From contig BCHU01000001.1 of assembly GCA_001599715.1 (NCBI GenBank), forward strand, positions 1,473,634 through 1,537,633: DNA of 64,000 nt, written 5' to 3'. Under the pieces are notes generated by a model. The model ran no database searches, was not told the DNA's origin, and saw only the letters and a list, made by a program, of their open reading frames with translations. A program made the translations under genes and the position numbers. Positions 1,076 to 55,099 of this stretch are shown here, one piece after another (positions within the stretch are counted from its first letter, which is position 1; every line of letters begins with the position of its first letter). This stretch comes from Phaeotremella fagi. Its lineage: Eukaryota; Basidiomycota; Tremellomycetes; Tremellales; Phaeotremellaceae.

Positions 1076-3095
1076 ATGGTATATAACCCATTCGCTAAAA
1101 GGAAATCAGTTGCTCTTCCAACGACGGATCAAACACCCTACGTGATGTCAACGTTACCGACTTTACTATCCAATCAACCCCCAGTACATACCTTACCAAC
1201 ACCACCAGCTTCACCTACAGATGGTGTTCCACCTTCACCTTTCGCCGATCCAGATCCAAATAATCTAGGTAACATGCCTTTAGACGAGAAAAGGAAAGTT
1301 AAATTCATGGAACGACCGATGATAAAATTAGTTAAAGACGATGTGATAACGATTTATAAATTCGCTAGAGGATTAGATTGGAAACAGGTTTTGAAGTTGT
1401 TAGTGAAACGAAGCATGTGGAGTGAGTTGTTTTCCCCTTTAATTCTTTCCCTACGGACAATACTGATACACAATTTTAGAATGGTACGCGATAGTCATAG
1501 TCGCTATCGTTCTCACTGCACTTCTTTCCGCTAAACATGAACAAATCGTAGATTTCTGTAGACCCCTTAGTAGGGATATAAGAAATTTACCAGGTGGATT
1601 CATGATTCCAATTTTAATTCTTGTTGTATTAAGTTTCCCACCATTAGTCGGTCATGAGGGTAGGTTGTTTACTTGCTTTAACAGCTATCACTTGACTGAT
1701 TCTCTTGTAGTTGTCGGAATTCTCATTGGTTTGGTATACGGTATCGGTGTCGGATTCGCTATTCTTGCAGCAGGTACTTTCTTGGGTGAAATTGCTACCT
1801 GGATAGCATTCAAATGGTGTTGTCAAGCTAGAGCTGCTAAATTTGAAAAATCAAACAAACTCTACTCATGTTTGACCCAAACGATAAGAGAAAAGGTTTG
1901 TGATATTCCATTGTCAAGAAACATTTTCACTGACCTCTCAAACTACAGAGTTTCATGTTCGTACTGGTTCTTCGATTCTCAGCTGTACCTGGTCATATCA
2001 CAACTGCAGTCTCTGCTTCGGCTGGTGCAAACTTTTGGATGTATCTGCTTGCTGCTTTCTTGACTTTGCCGTGAGTTACTTTCCCATTTTGACAATGAGG
2101 GTATACTGACCCACCACTTTAGGAAACAATTCACGATCGTCTACTTGGGTCAAGCATACGGAGTGAAAGATTTCAAAAACACTTTAATCTCGACCATCGC
2201 CACTGTCGCAACACTACTTGGAACTGTGGTTGCAGCAGTTTACATTTATTATCAAATGAGAATGGTCATGTTACGTGAAACAGCGATCTTACCTACATCG
2301 ATTGATGCAGCTGACGGACCAACTTGGGCGGATGTAGCAGCAGCAGAAGGTGGACCAAGAGGATCAGTCGCCGTACCAACCGACGAGAAAGATATCGATC
2401 TAGTCAACGTCGTACCAGCCGAAGAGGGATTAGCGTCCCTCCACGCCAGACGACCTTGGTTATACACAGCTCATTCATATCTCTCAACATCATCGAATTC
2501 ATCTAAAAAAGCCCTTCGAGCAAGAAGTTTACCTGGACCAATGACCGAAGAAGAAATGAAAGATTGGGTCAATGAATTGGAAGAGGGTTCAGGAGTTTCC
2601 ACACCTGGAATCAGAGTTGATGAAGACGGAAACGATAAACTACAGAATTCAGGGAAACTACCACAATTCTCACCGGAATTTTTAATGTCCTCGAAAATGC
2701 CTTCATCGAGATTGAGTACTAGTACGAGTATACCTGATTCACCTGTATCATCACAAAGCAATCTACTACCTCCAACGGCCTACGAGGAACCACCATCGAC
2801 ATCCAAAAATCCAACAATCTCATATCCACCACCAAAGAATTCTTGGGGTGAGAACACACGGGGTACGGTATCGCTGGATCATGGTTCGAGACCATTGAGG
2901 AATTCTAAATCTTTAGGAAACGGGGTGGGAGGGGGTAGGGAGGTAGCTGATGATGCTGATGCGTATGCTTTTGGACGGGGAGCTAGGAGACCGGATTATG
3001 GGAGATTTAGAGGTGAATCTAGAGCGGCGTTGTTAGGTCGTCCGGCTAGTCTTGAAGATGATGATTCGGAGAATGGTTCGGTTAGACGATCTTGA
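1076..3095 (+). CDS. TVP38: TVP38/TMEM64-family Golgi membrane protein (VTT domain)
   Basis: Five exons (1076-1421, 1480-1659, 1711-1895, 1949-2070, 2123-3095) give about 601 residues in one frame. The central part has several hydrophobic segments: WYAIVIVAIVLTALL, then IPILILVVLSFPPLVGHE, then a glycine-rich VYGIGVGFAILAAGTFLGE segment, then FVLVLRFSAVPGHI. This order is that of the SNARE-associated/VTT (TVP38, DedA-like) domain; family members are multi-pass proteins of the Golgi and other endomembranes, some with lipid-scrambling activity. The last 270 residues are hydrophilic, Ser/Pro rich and predicted disordered, much longer than in yeast Tvp38. The N-terminal 85 residues are also Pro/Thr rich. 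The start is the first ATG of the coding exon. Specific function in this organism is inferred from the family only. Confidence 0.85.
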
Positions 3096-3624
3096 GATTT
3101 GGGTTTTGGGGTTTGTTGCATTGATTAGGTTTGCCGTTTGGTTGTGGGTTCTGTATGGTGTCGGTTTTTTTTTGTTTCTCTTCTTCTCTCCTCATCTACA
3201 AATATACTTTTCCATCATTGAAATCCTCGTCATCATCAATCTTTGATCAGTTGTATTGTCGTTATTTCCCTCTTTTCTTTACCATTATCTTGTGCTTTGT
3301 ACTCTTACTATCGTCCTTGTCGTAACATTATCCTGTCCTATTTTATACTAAACTATACTTTATACTCAATACATTAAACAGATGAAAAACGGAATCAATA
3401 TAAAGCATTGGAATGGAGGTTGACTCAACCGCTTAAAACATGAAACCGGCTCGTCCACTACTAAGATTTGTTTACATTTACAATTCCAACTTCAACTTTC
3501 TTCTTCTACATTCAGATATATTCCTCTCATCAAATCACTCCATAGCTCTACCAGAAGCAAAAACTGGGATACCCATCATCAACCAGAAGGTAGGCTTGGG
3601 GTGAGCCCAGGATCAGTCCAAAAA
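3096..3624. other. intergenic: TVP38-like 3' end and PIF1-a promoter
   Basis: T-rich 3' flank just after the stop (3160-3320), then AT-rich sequence up to the PIF1-a start. I see no gene. A GTAGGCTTGGG sequence near 3590 could be a splice donor of a 5' UTR intron, but this cannot be decided from sequence alone. Confidence 0.4.
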
Positions 3625-50857: not shown

Positions 50858-52910
50858 TCATTTCCCCTCAAGTATATCAGTGAAATTGGTATGGTGCACC
50901 CCCTTTTCGTGACCAGGCTTGTCTTCCCCTTTAATATCGTAGTTGTGATGACCAAAGTCTATCAAAAATCAACAAAAGGCCTATCAAGAACACTCACAAT
51001 CCAACTCCATTTCCTCAAAGTTGGTCGGTAAATTCTTCCCGCCAACGGCCTTGAGCCATTCGAGAGTAGCTCCGACAGCGGGTGCGACTGCATCAGTGTC
51101 TAAAGCTATGGAATAGATCTTCTTGATACTAGCGTAACTTTCTGATAGCTGTTTGCCAACGTCTGGAAGGGATTTCAGAAGGTTTTGAGGTTCTGAAGGT
51201 TTGAGAGGTGATAGAAGTGGAAGTAGGAATTCACTGATTGCGTCTGATCACTGTTAGCACCGGTTTTACTGGGATTTTGGACTTACCAGATTGAATTATA
51301 CATCCAGCCCTCCAGATTTTCATGCAGTCCGCCAATTGAACATCCCATTTCTGAGTGATTAGTCGTGATCATAACCAGAACCTACTTCTTGCTTTGAAGC
51401 TTTGGCAATAAGCTAAAACACACAGCGTATCAAAAATTGTACTCCCATTTCAAAAAATCACAACCCACCTCGAGACCCATAACGAAGGCAGCCAAAAAGC
51501 AACCATACGTTGCAGTATGGAAATCTTCCAACAACTCTGACATTTCCTTTTCATCTAGTTTACTATATTTTGAAGATTTAGTAGGTTGGGGGATTGAGAG
51601 GTTGCGAATAACTTCAAGACGTTCAGTCCTGTTTGCTGATATGATACGGAGGTCGTGAGCGGCATTGAAAGATGGAGCTGCTACATGTCGAAGAGCTGTC
51701 TCCTAAAGATGTTGAATAAGCTTTGTTTTTCAATCTAAATGTCCAAACGTACCTCGGCAGACCAAGTTCCTGATCCCTACAAGAAGAAAGATCAACACAG
51801 TATTTGTACAAAAATCCTAAAGAAAACTTACCTCTGAGTAATCAGCATCCTGAGTGACTTTATCTTCAATATCTTCAACAATCCCTTTATCATTTTGGAT
51901 CCCATCACCTTCCTTGAATTTAAGCGCTTTGAAGCCAATACCGATCAAATAATTTCCACGTAAGGGTCCAGATTTATCCCATGACTCGAATATTTCCGAG
52001 ATTCTGTCGTTGTCAAGTCCGATTTGGTGGGCTAACAGACCACGAGCTTCGCAGAGGATTGACATCTGAGCGTGCTCTGATGACTGTGAGATGGGGTAAT
52101 GAGAATTGGAGAAGAACGTACCGATACCATTGTGAATCATCTTCACATCTAAGATATCATATTGAGTCGAGCTCAAAGAAACTCAGATGGATGACTCACA
52201 ATGCCCGGACCCGCCAGGCCCTAGACGTAGTACACAAGGTTCCCCCTCTTTCGTCTTCGCCGCCCAAGTCTCACAAATCGGTTTGATGATCTTCCAAGCT
52301 TCTTCTGAACATCCAGGTGACATCGAGGGACCATGTCGTGCAGCTTGATCTGCGAATTTGTGATTTAGAGCTATTTGAAAATCAGAAATCCCTTGAACTT
52401 ACATCCACCGCTGACACCGCAGCCTACCCATTCGATCCCTTTCTCGCCGGCGATCTTCTGTCGTCTGGCAGTGTTGTTGTAATGTTCATTCCCACCGTCG
52501 ATGATAACATCCCCTTTACTGAGTAGAGGTAGAAGATCATCCATAATTCCATCTACAGGTTTGCCATGAGGTAAACTAAGAATAACAATTCTTGGTTTCT
52601 TATTTTTATCTTGATCGCCTTCCTTACTTTCTGGGAAAGCTGCGACTAATTTCTCTAAAGTTGAAAATCCATGGACTGCAGATTCATCGACTCCATCTTC
52701 GTCTTTAGCTGATTTCATCAGACGTTCGACGGCAGATTTGTCATAATCGTAACATCCGACTTTACTTCCTTTTTCTGCGAACAGTAAAGTCATACCCTTG
52801 GGATTGATTTAGTATTCGCTTCTTGTGAATCGATTTACCTTTCCCATGGAGCCACTTCCTACTATCCCAACTTCAATGTCTTTGACTGAGTCGTTATCAA
52901 TATCTGCCAT
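50858..52910 (-). CDS. 6-phosphogluconate dehydrogenase, decarboxylating (divergent homologue)
   Basis: Minus strand, many exons. NADP-binding start VGIVGSGSMGKGMTLLFA, with GxGSMG in place of the usual GLAVMG. IVILSLPHGKPVDGIMDDLL, GDVIIDGGNEHYNNTARR and VGCGVSGGYQAARHGPSM follow; the family's usual SGGEEGAR is here SGGYQAAR. LRLGPGGSGHYVKMIHNGIE (catalytic Lys and HNG) is intact across a 27-nt exon. The C-terminal half has GTWSAEETALRHVAAPSF, GCIIQSEFLLPLL, LDYFGHHNYDI and HHTNFTDIL, corresponding to the family's YFGAHTYER and FHTNW blocks. The enzyme makes ribulose 5-phosphate and NADPH in the pentose phosphate pathway. The divergence suggests a second, specialised isoform (inference). Confidence 0.83.
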
Positions 52911-53162
52911 CTTGCCTCTAGATCTGAATCTTGGAAGTTGATTTCAATTGAAGTTATGATGTGAGAGGCTTTCTTGTACATCTTCTCCCCCATAGATATA
53001 CACCTCCCATGTCATCTATGACATCAAGATTCCTTTGAACACATCAGCAGTTTCCAAACCAAAAACGTCACCAGAAGTATTTTTATATGCGTGCCTGAAA
53101 TGCAAACACCGGGTCAAAACTTTGTTCATTACCGTAAAGTCGCGAGGCCGAAGGTCCGAGCC

Positions 53163-53248
53163 GTGAGCGACAGCTCACGTGACCGACAGGTCACAACAGT
53201 GCGACAGCACTGCCACAATGCGACAGCATTGTAATCCCGACAGGGATT
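53163..53248. repeat. array of five hairpins with invariant loop CGACAG
   Basis: Five perfect inverted repeats in 86 bases: GTGAG-CGACAG-CTCAC (53163-53178), GTGAC-CGACAG-GTCAC (53179-53194), CAGTG-CGACAG-CACTG (53197-53212), ACAATG-CGACAG-CATTGT (53215-53232) and AATCC-CGACAG-GGATT (53233-53248). The linkers are 0, 2, 2 and 0 bases. The loops are identical and in the same orientation, while the stems are all different yet pair fully. Loop spacing is 16, 18, 19 and 17 bases. The pattern is directly visible; the function is unknown. Confidence 0.95.
53175..53182. promoter_or_regulatory. E-box TCACGTGA at the junction of hairpins 1 and 2
   Basis: The right stem of the first hairpin and left stem of the second abut to form TCACGTGA, the core bound by Cbf1-type bHLH factors, which in yeast control sulfur genes. 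It lies about 495 bases upstream of the sulfite pump. This may be chance. Confidence 0.35.
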
Positions 53249-53265
53249 TCATAACGCCTAAAACC

Positions 53266-53362
53266 GGAGTATGGTATCCCCTTCAGTTTTTCGAAAGTCG
53301 ATTAAAGTTCAGGAGTATGGTCATTTAAGGTTCAGGAGTATGGTGTCCAGCGACCATACTCT
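53266..53362. repeat. GGAGTATGGT direct repeats ending in an inverted copy
   Basis: Copies at 53266-53275, 53312-53321 and 53335-53344; the last two share the longer unit A-A-[AG]-GTTCAGGAGTATGGT. The inverted copy ACCATACTCT is at 53353-53362, so the third copy can form a 9-bp stem (53336-53344 with 53353-53361) over an 8-base loop. Confidence 0.85.
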
Positions 53363-53676
53363 AATCAAACTCTTACGTAATCTGATCTTCACCGGTTAAA
53401 AGTATTCGGAATTCCAGATGTTGTGACAGGAGTGAATTTACTTTTGAATCCGAATATTTGAACAACTTCCTAATAATCATCTCGTTCTATCCGGAAACAG
53501 CACGCGATGTTCGAGTCGTAAACTACGAATACCTTTCGACAAGAAAATTTCTCTAAAACATCAAATAGATGATGGTTTTTATGACAATCTACTTTCATGG
53601 CCTTGCCACTCGAACTCGAAATATCACCTGACATTCTATAGCCCAAGTATAACTTTTCTAACGCATCTATATCGAC

Positions 53677-55099
53677 ATGGACGATATTCAACACGATCGT
53701 TTGTTTCCAGGAGTGAACGGTTCGATGGCAGAGTCTCAACCTTCAACCTCGAGTCTTCATCCTAGCTCGATCCTGGCATCCGAAAGTCCAATCAATAATC
53801 CACCTTTACCTGTCTGCAAACCTCCTTCTAAAACTATCAGTCAAAGAGTCGAACATGCCGTACTCAACTTACCCCCCTCCTTCTTCTCTCTCAACATGGG
53901 TACCGGAATAGCTTCCATTCTATTATACAATCTACCTTACAATGGTGTCTGGTTACAACGACTGGGTATCGTCATTTTCGTGTTGAACGTTCTTCTTTTC
54001 GTTCTGCTATCAATAGCCAATGTTATACGGTATACCCGTTGGAAGGGTGTTTTCATGAGTGTGCGAAATCATTTGGTATCAAGTTTATTCTGGGGTTGTT
54101 TACCTATGGGTCTTTCAACTATCATTGTGAGTTTGAAAAGAACGTGAACAGTTCTGATACAGTATCCAGAATATGATCGTGTTTGTTTGTGTTCCAGCTT
54201 GGGGTTTGAATTGGGCTCATCTAGCTCTCGGTCTTTGGTGGATTGATGTTATAATATCCCTCTTGGTGAATCTGGGAACGGTTTTCATCATGTTCGTTTA
54301 TCATGTTCATACTCCCGAATCACTCTCTTCCGCCTGGCTTCTCCCCGTCGTCTCGTCAGTGGTCGCCGCTTCTACGGGGGGTATCGTTGCAGAAGGACTT
54401 TTACCATATGATCCTCGTTTGGCACGTTCGACGGTTATCGTCGCATATGTCATCTGGGGAACGGGTGTTCCGTTAGCCATGTTCATCACTACACTCTGGA
54501 TACATAGAACAGCTATCACCGGTCTTCCGCCAGTTGGAGCTTTACCAAGTGTCTTCATACCGGTCGGTCCATGTGGTCAAGCTTCATTTGGAATTGTCGT
54601 TCTAGGAAGATTAGTAAGGGATCTGGCTTATGATCATGGTGTTGGCTTTTCAATTTCAGTCCCTAATTCAAATTCGAATTCAATAGTGGTGATCGCAGAA
54701 GCCATTTATGCAGGCGCATTGATCACTGGTCTTGTTCTTTGGGGATTAGGTTTTGTTTGGTACATCATAGCTACAGCTATCACCATTCACCACATATGCA
54801 GTGATATCAATTTCATCAAACCCAAATCAGTCAACATCGGTTGGACAGCCTATACTTTCCCAATTGGAGTTTTCGCATCGGGAGCCACTATCCTCGCTAA
54901 TGAACTCGATTCACCGGCGTTCAAGGTTATAGGAACTTTCCTCTCAGTACAGGTGGTACTGAGTTGGCTTTACGTTTTTCTCGTAGTTTTGTGGAGGTCT
55001 TGGGATGGTTCAATCTTTGTTGCACCAGAATTGGCGTCTTTTTCAAATGGTCCTGCATTACGCTGGGCAAAGAAACTTGATGAAAAGGGACAGGTGTAG
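53677..55099 (+). CDS. SSU1: sulfite efflux pump, SSU1-like (TDT family)
   Basis: Two exons: a 5' exon to 54126 and a second exon from about 54173. After a 60-residue polar N-terminus comes VLNLPPSFFSLNMGTGIASILL, the family's hallmark start of the first membrane segment, followed by about ten hydrophobic segments: LGIVIFVLNVLLFVLL, SSLFWGCLPMGLSTII, LALGLWWIDVIISLLVNLGT, SAWLLPVVSSVVAAST, VAYVIWGTGVPLAMFITTLW, VFIPVGPCGQASFGIVVLG, GWTAYTFPIGVFASGATILA and VVLSWLYVFLVVLWRSWDG. Ssu1 exports sulfite and protects from its toxicity in sulfur-amino-acid catabolism. The protein could instead move malate, as other TDT members do, but the MGTG and PVGPCGQ motifs favour SSU1. The gene sits downstream of the hairpin array. 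Confidence 0.88.

Follow-up and report, generated by a model that had tools for sequence, protein, structure and literature searches.

Tandem hairpins with a constant GACA tip at three loci of the Phaeotremella fagi genome: a small structured element, possibly a noncoding RNA gene

What would keep five short hairpins side by side, on different stems and with one and the same tip, in the DNA between two genes? The question is raised by an array in the window, i.e. the whole stretch of 64,000 nucleotides analysed here. The initial annotation had reported five tandem perfect hairpins with CGACAG loops, and both the sequence and the folds confirm them: on the + strand, positions 53162-53248 hold five back-to-back perfect hairpins, in which CGACAG starts at 53168, 53184, 53202, 53221 and 53238 and is enclosed by inverted arms of 6, 5, 5, 6 and 5 bp, all of them perfect. 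The C and the G at the ends of CGACAG form a base pair, which reduces the constant loop to a GACA tetraloop closed by C-G and brings the stems around it to 7, 6, 6, 7 and 6 bp:

53162..53179, + strand: hairpin 1, CGTGAGC-GACA-GCTCACG, 7 bp
53179..53194, + strand: hairpin 2, GTGACC-GACA-GGTCAC, 6 bp (base 53179 is common to hairpin 1)
53197..53212, + strand: hairpin 3, CAGTGC-GACA-GCACTG, 6 bp
53215..53232, + strand: hairpin 4, ACAATGC-GACA-GCATTGT, 7 bp
53233..53248, + strand: hairpin 5, AATCCC-GACA-GGGATT, 6 bp

CGACAG itself occurs 31 times in the window (17 on the + and 14 on the - strand), and only the five array copies are flanked by a stem of at least 3 bp. As the initial annotation had suggested, the array was counted against dinucleotide-shuffled sequence. 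With stems of at least 5, loops of 4-8 and gaps of at most 10, the window yields 8 same-loop neighbour hairpins, that is 4 real pairs each scored under loop CGACAG and under loop GACA, against a mean of 0.03 and a maximum of 2 in 100 shuffles; the array is thus not a product of chance. Twenty places on the same contig (199,899 bases) contain no same-loop neighbour hairpins with gaps up to 30, and neither GACA nor TGTC caps any of the 65 tetraloop hairpins with stems of at least 6 bp in these sampled bases. Folding gives a z-score of -8.6 for the + strand and -4.3 for the - strand as RNA, and of -8.3 as single-stranded DNA; the RNA and the DNA fold show the same five hairpins, and the longer segment 53139-53292 reaches -6.75 as RNA. 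The covariance model that had also been suggested was built from a single hairpin; it places the five window hairpins at ranks 1-4 and 6 of its 15 matches in the window.

The stems turned out to be less independent than the initial annotation had assumed. It had stated that they share no sequence, which is not so: hairpins 1 and 2 (GTGAG/GTGAC) differ by one compensated pair, and the same holds for hairpins 3 and 4 (CAGTG/CAATG). These near-duplicates mean that the five hairpins are not independent events, and the earlier argument from five independent pairings has to be given up. The smallest tree joining the five hairpins requires 9 pair changes, none of them in the loop. When the five stems are aligned, all 30 cells are Watson-Crick paired and 5 of the 6 pair columns have changed on both sides; the covariation score was reached by 0 of 500 shuffles, while 45 of 500 reached the measure of pairs with a change on both sides and 10 of 500 that of further pair types, the rows being five copies inside one locus and not orthologues. 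Pairing kept through two-sided changes, as expected of a structured RNA, is hence found on the five window stems as copies within a single locus, and to all appearance their pattern is one of duplication followed by compensated change. This supports the initial annotation's alternative of structural constraint or a hairpin-copying mechanism, as pairing was kept through the changes. The constancy of the loop within the window comes to 0.048 if every base mutates alike and to 0.015 with the closing pair counted, so that the window alone lends the constant tip modest statistical weight.

A search of the whole genome (22,626,164 bases on 24 contigs) by letter patterns and DNA likeness, which the initial annotation had proposed along with the possibility of a repeat family, found a second and a third locus. 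The second array occupies 160 bp on the minus strand of contig C3 and consists of four perfect GACA hairpins on other stems, of 5, 8, 13 and 13 bp:

C3:1698495-1698654, - strand: perfect hairpin GTCGC-GACA-GCGAC
C3:1698495-1698654, - strand: perfect hairpin CACGTGGC-GACA-GCCACGTG
C3:1698495-1698654, - strand: perfect hairpin CCTGGGGGCGACT-GACA-AGTCGCCCCCAGG
C3:1698495-1698654, - strand: perfect hairpin CCAGAGCCCCCGT-GACA-ACGGGGGCTCTGG

Two of these four are closed by T-A and not by C-G. The invariant CGACAG loop thus holds for all five window hairpins, but what is constant across the loci is GACA. As RNA, the C3 array folds with a z-score of -9.7 on the GACA strand versus -6.8 on its complement. 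Hairpin 1 of the window (CGTG-A-GC) and one of the C3 hairpins (CGTG-GC), compared by eye, differ by a whole base pair that is present or absent on both arms. Taking the nine distinct perfect hairpins of the window and C3 together, and leaving out the imperfect hairpin of the 5' motif described below and a damaged one at the third locus, 71 of 71 stem pairs are Watson-Crick; because Watson-Crick matching served to define the stems, the absence of G-T inside them is partly by construction, and folds that allow G-U return the same stems at both loci.

The third locus, C17:90044-90187 (144 bp), is a near-identical, damaged copy of the C3 array in which one arm of the third hairpin is missing. Its last hairpin has 15 bp, two pairs more than the C3 counterpart. 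With two nearly identical loci among the three, the independent sample is two. The flanks of the two copies are unrelated (15 of 40 positions identical on the left and 8 of 40 on the right, ungapped); if a 4-base gap is allowed, some weak likeness may extend about 15 bases further to the right, and the right boundary is uncertain by about that length.

Further arrays were sought with several patterns. Three CGACAG in succession match 9 genome places (3 in the reversed control), of which 3 lie in the window array, 1 at C3 and 1 at C17; the other 4 are direct or spaced CGACAG repeats without such hairpins and were rejected. Two CGACAG 8-20 apart occur at 38 places (control 32), including 4 in the window, 2 at C3 and 2 at C17. 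Short-spaced GACA triples are found at 76 places (control 95), and a middle stem of at least 5 bp is present in 5 of them (3 window, 1 C3, 1 C17); among the rest, one has a 3-bp middle stem and the others fewer pairs. The pattern VNNNGCGACAGCNNNB has 4 perfectly paired cases among the matches listed (100 of 186), 3 in the window and 1 at C3. Two patterns for G+C-rich stems gave 3 perfectly paired places out of 8 (C3, C17 and C11; control 1) and 3 out of 13 (two at C3 and one at C17; control 2). Arrays with long stems or wide spacing may exist beyond these short-spacing searches. The C11 hit, TTCGGCGC-GACA-GCGCCGAA at C11:395658, was judged unrelated and set aside: it stands alone beside a U6 gene as one GACA hairpin, without the 5' motif. 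In viral contigs, 85 stretches fit the 5' motif pattern and at least 120 carry three CGACAG; neighbouring GACA hairpins are present in 3 of 205 viral loci (L178, L209 and L234; 2,028,254 bases), where all stems are GGACC/GGTCC, and we read these as a simple repeat and take them to be unrelated.

The loci have more in common than their hairpins. Two blocks precede the array, and a run of T follows it, which would delimit a candidate transcript:

53108..53138, + strand: upstream block ACCGGGT-N16-ACCGTAAA, common to the window and C3
53142..53161, + strand: conserved 5' motif GCGAGGCCGAAGGTCCGAGC, directly before hairpin 1, a possible small hairpin with a GA/GA internal loop
53287..53291, + strand: T5 run, candidate transcript 3' end, read from the sequence and suggestive only
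53142..53291, + strand: proposed extent of a putative RNA of 150 nt, from the 5' motif to the T-run

The 5' motif is 20/21 nt long and common to all three loci, in the form GCGAGGACGACAGTTCCGAGC at C3 and C17. Its pattern GCGAGGN{0,10}TCCGAGC occurs at 5 places in the genome, 3 of which are the array loci, and at 0 in the reversed control; the other two, C10:1105424 and C17:81548, fit the pattern without GACA hairpins and were rejected. A loosened form finds 19 places (control 2), of which 7 belong to the three array loci and 12 were viewed as strings. The fold of the motif is no better than that of shuffles (z -0.7 and -1.3). The C17 copy begins a single base ahead of GCGAGG, and to the left of that point it is unlike C3, from which we conclude that the motif marks the left boundary of the unit.

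The upstream block comprises ACCGGGT and ACCGnAAA at the window and C3, and is missing at C17. The pattern ACCGGGTN{14,30}ACCGNAAA fits 3 places in the genome, two of them directly upstream of the window and C3 arrays (reversed control 1); the remaining one, C11:691398, has no GACA hairpin of at least 4 bp nearby and was rejected. The 60-bp collinear alignment of the upstream regions has a score that 7 of 2996 random segments reached, and their local alignment an ordinary one reached by 248 of 2996, the comparison having been chosen after the resemblance had been seen. On the 3' side, the window and C3 show no likeness beyond chance (368 of 3000 in local and 1216 of 3000 in global alignment). 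Scans with bacterial consensus sequences gave no terminator-like site, and 3 promoter-like sites compared with 2.5 in shuffles.

The loci have a common start that bounds the unit, two of them a common upstream block, and their hairpins vary in number while all ending in one tip; as far as sequence can tell, this suggests either a small RNA gene or a DNA element of a kind of its own. Likewise, the blocks common to other loci suggest a self-contained element rather than part of a 5' UTR. We thus tentatively favor the reading, which we hold to be quite possible, that the three loci belong to one undescribed family of small structured elements, probably noncoding RNA genes of about 150 nt (+ strand in the window), in which the GACA hairpins serve as equivalent binding sites and the stems are kept perfect by template switching. 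Such an element would comprise the upstream block, the conserved 5' motif close to where the RNA starts, and a run of GACA-capped perfect hairpins. Each hairpin would be an interchangeable copy of one putative binding site, with the tip rather than the stem being recognised, and one RNA would display several such sites to the same putative partner. Hairpin number and length could accordingly vary, from five short ones in the window to four of 5-13 bp at C3, and new hairpins would arise by tandem duplication. The stems would drift freely, template switching during DNA synthesis copying each change into the other arm.

At both the window and C3 the better fold of the two strands is that of the GACA strand, which modestly favors an RNA read in that direction. 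RNA selection would allow some G-U; we therefore think that the arms are kept identical at the DNA level, by template switching. If real, the absence of G-T is not what one would usually see in an RNA maintained only by selection. Template switching accounts for the perfection of the stems but leaves the constant tip unexplained; this constancy, taken with the second locus, speaks for GACA being recognised. We know of no partner for the GACA tip motif.

The main rival starts from the same stems. The hairpins may be a functionless by-product of an inverted-repeat hot spot, generated by tandem duplication and template switching from arm to arm, with a loop that is constant only through the youth of the copies. 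The 71 of 71 Watson-Crick pairs, the one-pair duplicates 1/2 and 3/4 and a loop constancy of only 0.015-0.048 per base all agree with it. A mechanism has been put forward as well: in the pertinent passages of PMC8794818, template switching is proposed to make and mend RNA stems, and PMC3820800 proposes such a mechanism for yeast quasi-palindromes. The RNA hairpins of the former resemble the array in their perfect stems and in compensated changes that arise in one step; these passages concern stems of RNA genes in general, whereas the array has many stems that all bear one tip. What the by-product reading leaves unexplained is why a second locus should have GACA again, on 13-bp stems that differ in sequence, and why the 5' motif and the upstream block are shared. 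Moreover, the 0 of 65 sampled tetraloop hairpins with GACA or TGTC and the lack of other same-loop neighbours in that sample suggest that such a process is not general across this genome. We regard this reading as a serious possibility, albeit on the unlikely side. Either way, one genome with free stem sequence, perfect pairing and a fixed tip is a clean case for the question whether compensated changes arise by selection through intermediates or by one-step template-switch copying, and it bears on both explanations because template switching predicts no wobble pairs, as seen.

A third reading, in which the DNA itself is the functional form, requires a look at the surrounding genes. The window array is flanked by a 6PGDH-like NAD_binding_2 domain on the - strand and a SLAC1 family domain on the + strand, which fits the initial annotation's placement in a divergent promoter, with a 6PGDH homologue on one side and a putative sulfite pump on the other; with start codons read by eye, 252 bp separate the start of the array from the 6PGDH-like ATG (minus strand, 52910), and the array ends 429 bp before the SLAC1-family ATG (plus strand, 53677). 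According to ORF lists, taken without gene models, the C3 array lies between a sulfatase ORF and an acyl-CoA dehydrogenase-like ORF, and four ORFs near the C17 array have no Pfam match. The ORFs that overlap the arrays at C3 (137 aa) and C17 (138 and 92 aa) have no Pfam match up to E 0.1, and no ORF of at least 100 aa crosses 53162-53248; the C3 and C17 arrays thus lie outside ORFs with recognised domains, and a protein-coding repeat was rejected, as no open frame with a recognised domain runs through the arrays at the three loci. No common gene function stands out around the three loci. A sulfur link between the sulfatase ORF (L031 16-1323) near the C3 array and the SLAC1-family gene near the window array is possible, and C17 gives no support to it.

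The position of the window array between divergent genes and of the other arrays outside ORFs with recognised domains would suit hairpins that, extruded or single-stranded, bind a protein between genes and control the neighbours, i.e. a cruciform or promoter array. Further points in its favor are the fold of the array as single-stranded DNA (z -8.3), the fact that every counted pair is Watson-Crick, and the GACA loop closed by C-G, which belongs to the stable d(cGNNAg) DNA loops. CACGTG, which we take to be the E-box of bHLH factors such as Cbf1, stands at the junction of hairpins 1 and 2 (53176-53181) and in both arms of one C3 hairpin. However, extrusion of a cruciform from duplex DNA would normally call for stems longer than 6-7 bp, and there is no common gene context (6PGDH-like and SLAC1 at the window, sulfatase and acyl-CoA dehydrogenase at C3, no Pfam domain in the C17 ORFs). 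A DNA element of this kind is in our view quite unlikely.

That C3 (160 bp) and C17 (144 bp) carry a common block within unrelated flanks is what a foldback or SINE-like unit moving as a block of about 160 bp would leave, yet such a mobile element is improbable: just three loci were found in the genome searches, the right flank has no A tail, and neither C3 nor C17 has a target-site duplication (the longest shared word at C17 is 3 bases, while random segments mostly give at least 4). Nor are single hairpins scattered, since the 4 perfectly paired cases among the matches listed (100 of 186) all belong to the window or C3.

Least probable is that the array acts in cis, as a tandem aptamer or translational element within the 5' leader of the pump gene. 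It does lie on the same strand, 429 bp before the SLAC1-family ATG, and tandem hairpins are also the layout of guanidine-II elements (as depicted in parts of PMC12335538). Yet the region has no Rfam match up to E 1, and one translated frame after the array has many stops. At C3, the array faces the 3' end of the sulfatase ORF and has the acyl-CoA dehydrogenase-like ORF behind it, so that no leader exists there as far as the ORF lists show.

Returning to the putative noncoding RNA, the element is undescribed as far as our comparisons reach, in line with what the initial annotation had supposed: Rfam 15 contains no family matching 52000-54500 up to E 1 and none matching the arrays over the C3 and C17 loci, its only hit being U6 on L037, and a literature search conducted mostly without subscription journals found no description of such an element. 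There is a likeness in layout to sponge RNAs of the CsrB/RsmZ type, in which a short RNA carries numerous equivalent hairpins, all with one loop motif but with free stems; these are bacterial and carry a GGA motif, whereas the present genome is eukaryotic, as a U6 snRNA gene and a split coding gene in it show. The conserved loop of guanidine-II riboswitches is ACGR, whereas the loops here are GACA (+) or TGTC (-), and this identity was rejected on that ground and for lack of an Rfam match. Guanidine-II (mini-ykkC) elements do share short tandem hairpins with the array, occurring in bacteria and vertebrates and in one case as a cluster of nine hairpins, according to sections of PMC12335538. A GACA tetraloop caps the RNA hairpin of domain IIIe in an avian calicivirus IRES, where a tertiary contact has been proposed; the relevant passages of PMC8789048 present it as a single loop inside the IRES and not as an array. 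Palindromic hairpin elements of organelles are likewise compact palindromic units in noncoding DNA, but those of PMC7218506, PMC2670323 and PMC4478555 are mitochondrial or plastid, whereas the arrays here lie at three loci on contigs of 0.28-2.4 Mb.

If transcribed, the array would represent an undescribed multivalent RNA with a GACA tip motif in a eukaryotic genome. The broader claim, namely a new class of eukaryotic RNA or single-stranded DNA element whose tip holds the only selected letters, whose free stems are rewritten by template switching and which forms a multivalent scaffold growing by duplication, strikes us as unlikely on present evidence.

Some minor observations concern sequences near the C11 hairpin and the window array. 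At L037 2743-3000 (C11:395343-395600), a full U6 snRNA match is followed by a weaker, partial U6-like copy below the family cut-off, with N nearby, possibly a tandem duplicate or an assembly fault. Beside U6 on the minus strand (L037 ~3056-3150), a row of G+C-rich stem-loops that ends in the C11 hairpin set aside above and an A run looks like another structured RNA, with no Rfam match. Just 3' of the window array, at 53266-53361, GGAGTATGGTATCC, CAGGAGTATGG and, in reverse, GACCATACTC recur and may be regulatory sites.
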